This document shows positions 1,474 through 62,045 of a stretch of 64,000 nt of DNA, piece after piece. The DNA comes from Pandoraea pneumonica. GTDB taxonomy: Bacteria; Pseudomonadota; Gammaproteobacteria; Burkholderiales; Burkholderiaceae. The notes beneath the pieces are model-generated. The model saw only the letters and a program-made list of their open reading frames with translations, had not been told where the DNA came from and did no database searches. A program made the translations under genes and the position numbers. The stretch is taken from positions 186,001 to 250,000 of the forward strand of contig NZ_CABPSK010000003.1 in NCBI RefSeq assembly GCF_902459645.1. Reading direction: 5' to 3'. Positions within the stretch are counted from its first letter, which is position 1. Every line of letters starts with the position of its first letter.

Positions 1474-1503
1474 TTGACAAGCGCCGCATCATCGACTTAT
1501 TCT
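1474..1503 (+). promoter_or_regulatory. Candidate sigma-70 promoter for the argD leader
   Basis: A perfect -35 hexamer TTGACA (1474-1479) is followed after 18 bases by TATTCT (1498-1503, 4 of 6 to consensus). Transcription would begin near 1509-1511, at or next to the ATG of the leader ORF. It is the best promoter-like pair in the 300 bases upstream of argD. This is an inference from sequence match only. Confidence 0.55.
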
Positions 1504-1510
1504 TGCCGAC

Positions 1511-1597
1511 ATGAACCTGATTGCCATCGCCTCGATCCGACGTCGCCGTACGCTGCCCCTCCCGGGATGCCGCGCGGCGCGCTATGGACTGCGATAA
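1511..1597 (+). CDS. Putative arginine-rich leader peptide of argD
   Basis: A 28-codon ORF contains four consecutive arginine codons (cga cgt cgc cgt, 1538-1549; peptide context SIRRRRT) and seven arginines in total. It ends at a TAA 23 bases before an intrinsic terminator that itself precedes argD, an arginine-biosynthetic gene. A run of codons for the pathway end product, followed by a terminator, is the hallmark of ribosome-mediated attenuation. No Shine-Dalgarno sequence is visible. The predicted transcription start falls at the ATG, so it would be read as a leaderless message. An antiterminator pairing was not obvious by eye. Confidence 0.6.
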
Positions 1598-1620
1598 CAA
1601 GCGAGTTCTCAAGCACAGCA

Positions 1621-1650
1621 AAGCCACGGGCAAACCCCGTGGCTTTTTTT
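1621..1650 (+). terminator. Intrinsic terminator in the argD 5' leader
   Basis: A perfect 10-bp stem (1621-1630 with 1636-1645, arms AAGCCACGGG and CCCGTGGCTT) is followed by seven T. It lies only 39 bases before the argD ATG, leaving little room for another promoter, so argD transcription probably has to pass it. That makes it a likely attenuator rather than a simple gene-end terminator. Confidence 0.8.
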
Positions 1651-1689
1651 ATTCCTCGTCTCTTTACCTTTCGCCCTTCGGAGACCGTT

Positions 1690-2958
1690 ATGTCGCTTGC
1701 TTCCCAATCTGCCGCCTCGTCATCGTCAACCGCCTCGAGCGCTAAAACTTCCGCCGACGCGAAGTTCGCCGAGTTCGCCACGCACGCCCTGTTGCCGATC
1801 ACGTCGCGCCCGGATCTCGTATTCACCCACGGCAAAGGTGCCTGGCTGTACGACCACGACGGCAAGCGATATCTCGACTTCATCCAAGGCTGGGCCGTCA
1901 ACAGCCTGGGCCACTGCCACCCGGTGATGCGCGACGCGCTCGCCACGCAATCCTCGCAGTTGCTCAACCCGAGCCCGGCGTACTACAACCTGCCGATGAT
2001 CGAGTTGGCGGACCTGCTCGCACGCCTGTCGGGGCTCGGCAAGGTGTTCTTCGCGAACAGCGGCGCAGAAGCCAACGAGAGCGCCATCAAGCTCGCCCGC
2101 AAGTGGGGACAACTGCACCCGAACCCGGCAGGCGGCGCGCGCTTCGAGATCATCACGTTCAAGAACGGCTTCCACGGTCGCACGCTCGCCACGATGTCGG
2201 CCAGCGGCAAGCCGGGCTGGGACACCATCTTCGCGCCGCAAGTGCCGGGGTTCCCGAAGGCCGATTTGAACGATATCGCGTCAGTCGAAGCGCTGATCGG
2301 CCCCGATACGGTCGCCGTGATGCTGGAGCCGATTCAGGGCGAAGCCGGTGTGGTGCCCGCGACCGACGCCTTCCTCAAGGAACTGCGCGCACTGACCAAG
2401 GCGCGCGGCCTGCTGCTGATCGTGGACGAAGTGCAAACCGGCTGCGGGCGTACCGGCACGCTGTTCTCGCATCAACAAGCCGGTATCACGCCCGACATCA
2501 TGACGCTCGGAAAAGGCATCGGCGGCGGTGTGCCGCTCGCCGCCATGCTCTGCGGCGACGAGTTCGCCGTGTTCCAGCCGGGCGATCAGGGCGGCACGTA
2601 CAACGGCAACCCGCTCATGTGCGCGGTTGGCCTCGCCGTGATGCGCACCGTCAGCGCTCCGGGCTTCCTCGAATTCGTGCGCGCGCAGGCCGATTACCTG
2701 AGCGCCGGGCTGGAACACCTGTCGTCGCGCTACGGCGGTCAGGGCGAGCGCGGTGCCGGGCTGCTGCGCGCCTTGCTGCTCGGCCGCGATATCGGCCCGC
2801 AGCTGGTGGAAGCGGCGCGCGACATGGGGCCGGACGGTCTGCTGCTTAACTCGGCACGCCCGAACCTGCTGCGCTTCATGCCCGCGCTCAACGTGAGCCG
2901 CGACGAAATCGATCAGATGCTCTCGATGCTCGATTCGCTGCTCGCCAAGCACGCTTGA
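1690..2958 (+). CDS. argD: Acetylornithine/succinylornithine aminotransferase
   Basis: This 422-residue class-III PLP aminotransferase converts N-acetylglutamate semialdehyde to acetylornithine with glutamate as amino donor, in cytosolic arginine synthesis. Visible landmarks are [15 protein letters not shown] (phosphate-binding turn), the [10 protein letters not shown] segment, [12 protein letters not shown] (PLP-binding Asp) and LGKGIGGG with the Schiff-base lysine at residue 275. The first 20 residues are Ser/Ala-rich and look like a lineage-specific tail. GGAGA at 1679-1683 supports the ATG at 1690. The preceding Arg-rich leader and terminator suggest control by arginyl-tRNA supply. Related omega-aminotransferases are hard to exclude, but the leader favours an arginine role. 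Confidence 0.88.
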
Positions 2959-3001: not shown

Positions 3002-3499
3002 ATGAACGACATGAGCCAGGCGCACGCGACGCCACCGGCCGACGCCATCGTCGAAATTTCGTACGATCCGGCCCGACTCGATATCGGCTTCATCCACAAC
3101 GCGCTCTCGACGCAGACGCACTGGGCAAAAGACATTCCGCGCGACACACTCATGCGCGCAATCTCGAACTCGCTTTGCTTCGGCGCTTACGCTACCCATG
3201 TCGAAGGCGGACCGGTGCAGCAAGTCGGCTTCGCGCGCGTGATTACCGACCGCGCCACGTTCGCGTATCTGGCCGACGTGTTCGTCGATCCATCGATGCG
3301 TGGCCTGGGCATCGGTAAGCGCTTGTGCGAGAACGTGCTCGCGCATCCGGCATTGCAGAACCTGCGGCGCTTTCTGCTGGCGACGACCGATGCGGCGAGT
3401 CTGTACGCGCGCTATGGGTTCGAACCGCTGGGTGCCGTGAACAAGATGATGCAGATTCACCGGCCCGACATTTACACCGGCGAGGGGGCGGCCTCATGA
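3002..3499 (+). CDS. GNAT family N-acetyltransferase
   Basis: This 165-residue protein has the GNAT acetyl-CoA site: VDPSMRGLGIGKRLCENVL (residues about 95-115) matches the Q/RxxGxG/A loop, with a downstream YARYGFEPLG strand-turn. It is preceded by a strong AAAGAGGAGA ribosome binding site and lies 43 bases after argD, so it is probably in the same transcript. The acceptor amine is unknown. Its 3' end overlaps the next acetyltransferase by four bases (ATGA), indicating translational coupling. Confidence 0.85.
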   Translation: MNDMSQAHATPPADAIVEISYDPARLDIGFIHNALSTQTHWAKDIPRDTLMRAISNSLCFGAYATHVEGGPVQQVGFARVITDRATFAYLADVFVDPSMRGLGIGKRLCENVLAHPALQNLRRFLLATTDAASLYARYGFEPLGAVNKMMQIHRPDIYTGEGAAS

Positions 3500-3969
3500 T
3501 CTCGCTGGCTTCCGACGTTCATATCCGCACTTTCGACGACGCCGATACCGATGGCGTGCTCGCGCTCTGGCGCGAAGCGTTCCCCGAGTACAACCGCGCC
3601 GACAAGCCGCACCGCGAGCCGCGCCGCTCGATCGCCAACAAAGTAGCGATGCAAGATGGCCTGTTCTTCGTCGCCGTGCGCGATCGCAAAGTCGTGGGCA
3701 CGGTGATGGCTGGCTACGACGGGCATCGCGGCTGGGTGTACTCGCTGGCGGTGGCGACTGCGCTGCGCCGACGCGGGGTGGCCAGCGCACTGCTACGCCA
3801 TGCGGAAACGGCACTCACCGAGCGCGGCTGTCTGAAGCTGAATTTGCAGGTGCTCACGCAATCGCGCGAAGCCCTCGCGTTCTATGCGGCGCACGGCTAC
3901 GCGGCCGACGATGTGGTGAGTATGGGGAAGCGGTTGCCGCTGGCATCGGGCGCGCGCGTCACGATGTAA
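3496..3969 (+). CDS. GNAT family N-acetyltransferase
   Basis: A second acetyltransferase (157 residues) starts within the stop of the preceding one. The acetyl-CoA loop is RRRGVASALLRHAE (about residues 94-107), after the GWVYSLAVATA strand; ALAFYAAHGYAADDV is the typical C-terminal GNAT element. A longer reading to about 3325 would run inside the upstream gene, so the ATG at 3496 with GGGGGCGG upstream is chosen. The overlap suggests the two proteins act together or are co-expressed. The substrate cannot be told from sequence. Confidence 0.85.
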   Translation: MISLASDVHIRTFDDADTDGVLALWREAFPEYNRADKPHREPRRSIANKVAMQDGLFFVAVRDRKVVGTVMAGYDGHRGWVYSLAVATALRRRGVASALLRHAETALTERGCLKLNLQVLTQSREALAFYAAHGYAADDVVSMGKRLPLASGARVTM

Positions 3970-4023
3970 GCCGCTGGATACGGCATGGCGCGCGATGCAC
4001 GTGCGCCGCCGTGGCAATGAAAA

Positions 4024-4055
4024 AAGCGCGCTGGAGTCGCCTCCAGCGCGCTTTC
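4024..4055. terminator. Bidirectional terminator between the GNAT gene and livF
   Basis: A 14-bp stem (4024-4037 with 4042-4055) with a four-base loop has an A tract on its left and a T-rich right side. It works best for the minus-strand liv operon, where six T follow the hairpin, and it can also end the argD transcript. Confidence 0.85.
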
Positions 4056-61118: not shown

Positions 61119-62045
61119 ATGACCACCGCCAAACCCATCAAGCATTACCTTCAATTTTCGGATCTGACACTCGATGAGTACGACTACGTCCTCGAGCGCA
61201 CCCGTATCCTCAAGAAAAAATTCAAGAACTACGAGACATATCACCCGCTGCACGACCGCACGCTGGCGATGATCTTCGAGAAGAGCTCGACCCGCACCCG
61301 CCTGTCGTTCGAGGCTGGCATTCACCAATTGGGTGGGCACGCGGTGTTCTTGAATACGCGCGATACGCAACTGGGCCGCGGCGAGCCGATCGAAGACGCC
61401 GCCCAGGTCATCTCGCGCATGACCGACATCATCATGATCCGCACGTTCGGTCAGGAGATCATCGAGCGCTTCGCGCAGCATTCGCGCGTGCCGGTGATCA
61501 ACGGCCTGACCAACGAGTACCACCCGTGCCAGGTACTCGCCGACATCTTCACGTACTACGAGCATCGCGGCCCGATCAAGGGCAAGACCGTGACGTGGAT
61601 CGGCGACGCCAACAACATGTCGTACACGTGGATTCAGGCCGCCGAGATCTTCGGCTTCCAGGTCAATATTTCGACCCCGCCGGGCTACCGCCTCGATCAA
61701 GCGATGGTGGCCGAGTCGAGCCGTCCGTTCGTGCGTGAATTCGACGACCCGCGTGAAGCCTGCGACGGTGCCGACCTCGTGTCGACCGACGTGTGGACCA
61801 GCATGGGTTACGAAGCCGAGAACGAAGCGCGTAAGGCCGCGTTTGCCCAATGGTGCGTGAACGCCGACCTGATGAAGCAAGCCAAAACCGACGCGCTCTT
61901 CATGCACTGCCTGCCCGCCCACCGTGGCGAGGAAGTGTCCGCGGACGTCATCGACGGCCCGCAAAGCGTGGTCTGGGACGAAGCCGAGAACCGTCTGCAC
62001 GTGCAAAAGGCGCTCATGGAGTACCTGATGCTCGGCAAGGTTTAA
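61119..62045 (+). CDS. argF: Ornithine carbamoyltransferase
   Basis: A 308-residue enzyme forming citrulline from ornithine and carbamoyl phosphate. SSTRTRLSFEAG is the carbamoyl-phosphate loop, HPCQVLAD and the C-terminal FMHCLPAHRGEEV (FMHCLPA is the ornithine-binding HCLP motif) are present, with TWIGDANNMSYTW in the second domain. It complements argD at the other end of the window. The ribosome binding site is weak. Confidence 0.97.
   Translation: MTTAKPIKHYLQFSDLTLDEYDYVLERTRILKKKFKNYETYHPLHDRTLAMIFEKSSTRTRLSFEAGIHQLGGHAVFLNTRDTQLGRGEPIEDAAQVISRMTDIIMIRTFGQEIIERFAQHSRVPVINGLTNEYHPCQVLADIFTYYEHRGPIKGKTVTWIGDANNMSYTWIQAAEIFGFQVNISTPPGYRLDQAMVAESSRPFVREFDDPREACDGADLVSTDVWTSMGYEAENEARKAAFAQWCVNADLMKQAKTDALFMHCLPAHRGEEVSADVIDGPQSVVWDEAENRLHVQKALMEYLMLGKV

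Follow-up and report, generated by a model that had tools for sequence, protein, structure and literature searches.

The region directly upstream of argD in the window (the whole 64,000-nt stretch of DNA that was analyzed) raises the question of what a short open reading frame (ORF) with four consecutive Arg codons, followed by a terminator, does between a promoter and an arginine-biosynthesis gene. In the trp, leu, his, and other operons, end-product codons together with a terminator sense charged tRNA. The argD leader is very probably a ribosome-mediated transcription attenuator. The basis for this reading is the anatomy of the locus, its conservation, the codon constraint on the Arg run, folding in silico that depends on ribosome position, and a search in which ArgR was not found. 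From these we infer the rest of the attenuator model: that the leader is translated, where exactly transcription starts, that the terminator arm is captured kinetically, and that the system responds to arginine. Attenuation had been proposed in a preliminary description of this DNA, and comparison with relatives (conservation, codon constraint, and folding) supported it well.

The leader locus upstream of argD

The following parts were identified, given in window coordinates:
1474–1503, + strand: sigma-70-type promoter TTGACA-N18-TATTCT (consensus scan, 10/12 consensus matches), with the -35 TTGACA at 1474–1479, a spacer of 18 nt, and the -10 TATTCT at 1498–1503
1511–1597, + strand: leader peptide ORF, leaderless-type, 28 codons plus stop (homologues in relatives), with the ATG at 1511–1513, seven nt past the -10 box, and the stop TAA at 1595–1597
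1538–1549, + strand: putative control codons CGA CGT CGC CGT (four Arg), segment 1, partner of segment 2 if ribosome-free
1569–1579, + strand: segment 2, candidate antiterminator strand GCCGCGCGGCG (strongest duplex partner of the terminator 5′ arm)
1620–1630, + strand: segment 3, the terminator 5′ arm, common to terminator and antiterminator (scan, duplex, and folding)
1636–1650, + strand: segment 4, the terminator 3′ arm and U tract (scan)
1620–1646, + strand: terminator AAAGCCACGGG-CAAAC-CCCGTGGCTTT, 11 pairs by scan
1644–1650, + strand: terminator T run of seven T
1497–1649, + strand: match to Rfam RF02884 BcKCsr7 (46.6 bits, model positions 1–157 of 157)
1690–2958, + strand: argD, acetylornithine transaminase, the putative regulated gene (NF002985/PRK03715 equivalog, 683.9 bits, cut-off 568)

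The promoter, ATG, 28-codon ORF, four Arg codons, stop, and seven T, followed by argD, had all been named in the preliminary description and were all present. The perfect terminator that it placed before argD was found as well, with a stem one pair longer than the 10 pairs it gave. A rule-based scan of the 64-kb window for a leaderless-type ATG ORF with RRRR and a downstream terminator returned one locus on the + strand and none on the - strand, and the consensus scan found no second promoter-like site between the terminator and argD. RNA 1510–1654 had a fold z-score of -2.68 vs. its own shuffles.

The match to RF02884 (BcKCsr7, “Burkholderia sRNA 7”) was full-length and scored below the gathering score of 59 bits; this cut-off was exceeded in 60 of the 150 genomes from the window's family. 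Read by eye, the RF02884 consensus contained, from its AUG, an ORF with four Arg codons. The window leader is related to RF02884 by place and parts, its score lying short of formal membership. Two other Rfam candidates fell far under gathering and were rejected: Phe_leader (E 0.21), for which the alignment shown rested on the terminator, and STnc400 (E 0.92).

Conservation, codon constraint, and a putative leaderless start

ArgD was present in 128 of the 150 window-family genomes. The first set of upstream regions comprised 121 (120 relatives' regions and the window), and an Arg-run leader with terminator was found in 99; as these loci were picked by a fixed GCCAC...GTGGC pattern plus an Arg-run rule, the counts are of loci passing those rules. 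The last seven regions contained one further leader (G069). In total, the leader was present in 100 of the 128 ArgD-positive family genomes and in 12 of the 19 ArgD-positive genera. One genome (G099, locus L083) was counted as neither positive nor negative because of masked letters at the start codon. Two letters were masked at the expected leader start there, and the remaining leader and terminator were visible. Leader and terminator were absent from 27 of the 128 family genomes: 14 from genus g12, others from g2, g15, g16, g18, g19, and g23, and G085. A reductase gene ended 5′ of argD in 24 of the 27 leader-negative loci (e.g., L080, L097, L117, and L147), and the same gene ended ≤550 nt upstream in 81 of the 99 leader-positive loci. 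In g16 and g18 the distance from the end of the reductase gene to argD is short, so that co-transcription may take the place of the attenuator in these genera.

Outside the window's family but within the same order, 120 genomes yielded 12 that were ArgD-positive, of which 6 contained the leader. Fourteen further genomes were drawn from three leader-positive outside families, and 12 of these contained it. Altogether, 18 of 26 outside genomes had the leader (f7, 9/11; f23, 4/4; f3, 4/4; f5, one), a figure that is not an unbiased rate because the 14 added genomes came from families already positive. The f5 leader (G236, with RRTR) was the weakest of the outside leaders. Going by family labels, the order has at least four families with the predicted leader. 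An alignment of relatives, suggested in the preliminary description, was in effect carried out by this survey, and the Arg run, whose absence from relatives had been named as refuting attenuation, was found both within and outside the family. The run and the terminator were kept, as had been expected; the stop, also expected to be conserved, varied in position, as did peptide length.

Among the 99 leaders, the Arg run started at codon 7 to 11 and comprised four Arg in 84 leaders, three in 12, and two in 3. Leader peptides were 15–32 residues long, and all three stops were used. The run variants across leaders were RRRR, RRRSFR, RRSFR, RRRAR, RRRH, and RRRC, with varying flanking residues; in every listed string the run opened with CGA, and all run codons were CGN. 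Genus g3 kept its Arg count in frame with different DNA (RRRSFR, RRSFR, and RRRAR). Codon differences were counted over pairs of 42 unique 12-codon starts, which are not independent pairs. Within the Arg run, codons differing by one base gave 500 synonymous to 40 non-synonymous differences (36% synonymous expected). Codons 2–8 had 827 synonymous to 1439 non-synonymous differences (26% synonymous expected) and no third-position excess. Judged by these counts, an apparent codon-level constraint acts on the Arg run, while stop and peptide length move.

A TANNNT box ended 6–9 nt ahead of the ATG in 98 of the 99 leaders. Promoters of the relatives were mostly TTGACA or TTTACA at 17–18 nt from the -10 box; g24 had the -35 variant TTGACT, and most of g25 had TTGCAT. 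The position of the -10 box agrees with the leaderless start suggested in the preliminary description, and the support that it lends is indirect. A length comparison with a published RNA also bears on the start. RF02884, RIT34, nc5U30, and Bc_KC_sr7 denote the same kind of Burkholderia locus and RNA, but filed as sRNA. In a table of the review PMC10987360, RIT34 (= nc5U30 = Bc_KC_sr7) is a Burkholderia cenocepacia RNA of 147 nt on chromosome 1 (2,967,641–2,967,787). In B. cenocepacia NCTC13227 the leader was located at L163:7457, and the distance from the A of its ATG to the last terminator-stem C, just before the T run, was 147 nt. This strain, which we regard as J2315 deposited in a culture collection, was compared with the published RNA by length, coordinates being left aside. 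The equal lengths would place the published start at the A of the AUG, if the published 3′ end is the end of the stem. The published start lies upstream of the terminator, in a species other than the window's, and thereby speaks indirectly against the start downstream of 1650 that the preliminary description had named as refuting.

Arginine operons are normally ArgR-controlled according to the preliminary description, a premise that does not hold here. Among 60 window-family genomes none had an ArgR (PF02863) match, with the control positive in 8 of 14, in a search directed at ArgR alone among arginine regulators; by this result argD is not placed in an ArgR regulon. As far as the accessible text of PMC5343134 goes, ArgR was absent outside gammaproteobacteria in the set studied there. 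In the window's genome, no leaderless-type RRR leader was found in ~600 nt upstream of each of argF, an argF-like gene, argC, and argB; the argF upstream region contained one ordinary RRR ORF without a terminator. The argF gene lies in the same window at 61119–62030 (ATG at 61119; TIGR00658, 363.6 bits, match 61140–62030).

Antiterminator and ribosome-dependent folding in silico

No clear antiterminator had been reported in the preliminary description, which missed the Rfam match as well. Duplex and folding analyses located one at 1569–1579, where segment 2 pairs with the terminator 5′ arm. The strongest duplex that this arm forms involves, for 79 of 99 genomes, a segment 17–20 nt past the Arg run, reading GCCGCGCGGC in the window and GCCGCUGGCU, GCCGUCGGCU, or GCCGCCGGCU elsewhere. 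In g3, where runs are shorter, segment 2 was found at 23–26 nt in 11 of 12 leaders (same ruler, counted by hand).

Antiterminator probability (P) was computed on a transcript ending before the terminator 3′ arm. Across the 99 leaders, free RNA gave P 0.05, a ribosome placed on the second Arg codon raised it to 0.81 and one on the fourth to 0.80, and a ribosome at the stop gave 0.02. The corresponding values for the window were 0.00, 0.84, 0.85, and 0.00. Segments 1 and 2 paired in free RNA with a mean of 0.49 across leaders and 0.52 in the window. Once the 3′ arm was present, the window's terminator had P 1.00; kinetic capture is assumed in the model because the terminator is in every case favored in the full-length RNA. 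A switch >0.3 was obtained for 92% of 90 unique sequences vs. 13% of 360 with shuffled spacers, and for 52% vs. 4% when any upstream partner was counted.

A codon-by-codon ribosome scan was run on 37 of the 90 unique sequences under four settings that spanned two temperatures and three footprints. P peaked on or next to the Arg codons, with values of 0.78–0.80 on them, an upstream shoulder of 0.66–0.69 one to two codons ahead of the run, and ≤0.11 from the eighth codon past the first Arg. Single-sequence duplex z-scores were modest (0.0 in the window) and did not single out the antiterminator, which therefore reaches significance through its position and over the whole set of leaders but not in an individual sequence. 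Exceptions within the family included three leaders that were weak when stalled (G006, 0.11; G025, 0.07; G017, 0.42) and one, G004, with P 0.71 already without a ribosome. The terminator arms were invariant in alignment A1 (53 of 88 unique leaders), and MAFFT displaced segment 2 by a single base from one genus group to another. Since the loci were selected with the GCCAC...GTGGC pattern and their arms do not vary, covariation of the 2:3 helix cannot be shown within the family.

Outside the family the arms differed. In f23 the terminator arm was GGCCGCA (GGCCGCG in G266) and segment 2 was GUGCGGCC (UGUGGCC in G266); in G214 the arm GGCCACGAG stood opposite CUCGUGCGCC; and in f3 the arm GCCGCGC stood opposite stretches such as GGCGCGCGC. 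Mean pairing with their own arm was -17.5, -16.9, and -15.8 kcal/mol for f23, G214, and f3, respectively, and the same segments paired with the window-family arm at -11.2, -12.0, and -10.1 kcal/mol. The order was reversed for the f7 duplex (-9.2 with its own arm and -12.5 with the f1 arm), while whole-leader folds of f7 still switched (stalled, 0.56–0.84; free, ≤0.10; stop, ≤0.23). Arm swaps gave no own-arm preference for G266 and G236, and f1 segments bound the f3 arm equally well. The arm-swap matrix supports a putative joint change of arm and segment 2 in G214, in f3, and, taken as a mean, in f23; f7 receives no such support.

Five of the eight leaders of f23 and f3 formed the antiterminator in free RNA as well, at 0.59–1.00 (genomes G171, G250, G214, G267, and G151; loci L178, L179, and L180 in f23 and L181 and L193 in f3). 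With an antiterminator that forms ribosome-free, these leaders would stay on until a ribosome arrives at the stop, and in the folding model their default state is possibly inverted. G268 reached only 0.31 when stalled, and G236 gave 0.41 at the stop.

Proposed mechanism, alternatives, and related systems

In the proposed mechanism, RNA polymerase would begin at or beside the leader AUG, so that a ribosome would load on a leaderless mRNA and trail the polymerase. With ample charged Arg-tRNA, the ribosome would pass RRRR towards the stop; segment 2 would be covered, or paired with the Arg-codon segment, and the 3:4 terminator would therefore form. Termination would free an RNA of ~140 nt, i.e., the “sRNA.” With Arg-tRNA in short supply, the ribosome would stall on the Arg codons and leave segment 2, ~18 nt downstream, free to capture the terminator 5′ arm ahead of synthesis of the 3′ arm, with read-through into argD.

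If true, this mechanism would give a function to the catalogued “sRNA” RF02884/RIT34, would suggest how arginine synthesis is controlled in a group in which ArgR was not found, and would bring arginine biosynthesis and leaderless initiation into the ribosome-attenuator repertoire. It lends itself to direct tests, since nature provides many variants that differ in terminator arm and stop position. A broader proposal is tentative, and we consider it possible though rather doubtful: in several families, a leaderless Arg-sensing attenuator would replace the missing ArgR at argD, with a logic that has drifted (mostly off unless stalled, with a protecting hairpin, in the window's family; on unless the stop is reached, without the hairpin, in the five f23 and f3 leaders), so that it would also read the rate of leaderless initiation.

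Three alternatives were weighed against attenuation. The RNA might be a trans-acting sRNA with its own promoter and terminator, the ORF and the proximity of argD being incidental. Rfam files RF02884 as an sRNA, the RIT and Bc_KC_sr names imply the same, and RIT34 is down in worm infection and up with organic peroxide in B. cenocepacia, according to the available part of PMC10987360. The attenuator model predicts that the RNA level relative to argD mRNA tracks arginine supply, so these published changes could be re-read as changes in Arg-tRNA charging. An incidental ORF agrees poorly with Arg codons that are constrained while stop and peptide length move, an antiterminator logic adjoins argD, and the window's genome had a single RF02884 match at E up to 1; the loci were anchored on argD, which places free-standing copies outside this sampling. 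Sass 2017 (PMC5688073, available in part) describes 82 short 5′UTRs from processing or attenuation, among which the name nc5U30 suggests that this RNA was filed. The available portions of the published accounts mention no leader peptide, arginine, or argD role for RIT34/nc5U30/Bc_KC_sr7. A purely trans-acting RNA is, on this evidence, very unlikely, and a trans role of the leader RNA may exist alongside attenuation.

The same RNA switch could instead be operated by nascent-chain stalling, with the ribosome halted by poly-Arg inside the tunnel or by binding of a metabolite, e.g., ornithine. SpeFL of enterobacteria senses ornithine. The run of basic residues, led by CGA in every listed case, is what such stalling might use; the run and its surroundings vary, which is not decisive, and a varying run is better fitted by Arg-codon counting than by a specific arrest peptide. 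We regard nascent-chain stalling as highly improbable. A constitutive partial terminator in an untranslated structured leader, with the Arg run a by-product of CG-rich pairing, would draw on the 1:2 pairing in free RNA, the exclusive use of CGN codons, and the lack of third-position excess in codons 2–8. ORFs in which the run starts at codon 7 to 11 and a stop follows were kept, an observation that is not independent because the ORF was a search criterion; g3 keeps three to four Arg with other DNA; and the dependence on ribosome position is largely lost in shuffled spacers. These results leave a constitutive terminator with hardly any probability. The identified parts, the constrained codons, and a switch tied to ribosome position agree with attenuation and agree poorly with the alternatives.

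The putative argD attenuator resembles those of trp/his/leu/thr/phe in four respects: a short ORF with end-product codons and an intrinsic terminator between leader ORF and biosynthetic gene, both present in the sequence, and an exclusive antiterminator with ribosome-position dependence, freed in silico by a ribosome on the control codons, with exceptions. It differs from them in sensing arginine, as proposed, and in its leaderless-type initiation, and some f23 and f3 leaders differ in that the antiterminator forms in silico ribosome-free. Literature examples of ribosome-mediated attenuators include his (PMC3896937) and ilvB1 (PMC13236596), both sources being available in part. The accessible text of PMC6386406 describes the Salmonella speF leader orf34, in which consecutive Arg codons sense arginine via ribosome pausing and alternative RNA structures. 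The argD leader likewise has consecutive Arg codons in an upstream ORF and predicted alternative RNA structures. In that account, however, orf34 has two Arg codons and a Shine-Dalgarno sequence, and acts via Rho, RNase G, and RBS access on ornithine decarboxylase, whereas the argD leader has an intrinsic terminator and precedes an arginine-biosynthesis gene. The window's 28-residue peptide had no Pfam match, DUF2618 included, and so was not assigned to the speF/SpeFL class, a query so short having little power.

Leaderless poly-Cys ORFs of mycobacteria were reportedly described as attenuators by Canestrari in 2020. They are termed translation attenuation in the available part of PMC13236596, and share with the argD leader a leaderless short ORF with a single-residue run, the residue there being Cys and the organisms mycobacteria. 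For the carA leader peptide of P. aeruginosa, attenuation under pyrimidine control has been proposed (cited in PMC4997734), and no carA-type leader peptide was found in P. syringae DC3000, as stated in the accessible text of that paper. Both carA and, putatively, argD have a leader peptide upstream; carA is an arginine/pyrimidine gene with pyrimidine control. The literature searched, which covered few subscription papers, contained neither an Arg leader of argD in Burkholderiales nor an arginine-biosynthesis attenuator with a leaderless leader. Ribosome-mediated attenuation is known, and its combination with arginine biosynthesis and a leaderless leader peptide would be new.

Two GNAT acetyltransferase genes (3002–3969) lie close 3′ of argD on the same strand and may be part of its attenuated transcript. 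A strong palindromic terminator-like site with 14 pairs and a T tail (4023–4054) separates the second GNAT ORF from a convergent ORF with the look of an ABC-transporter ATPase.
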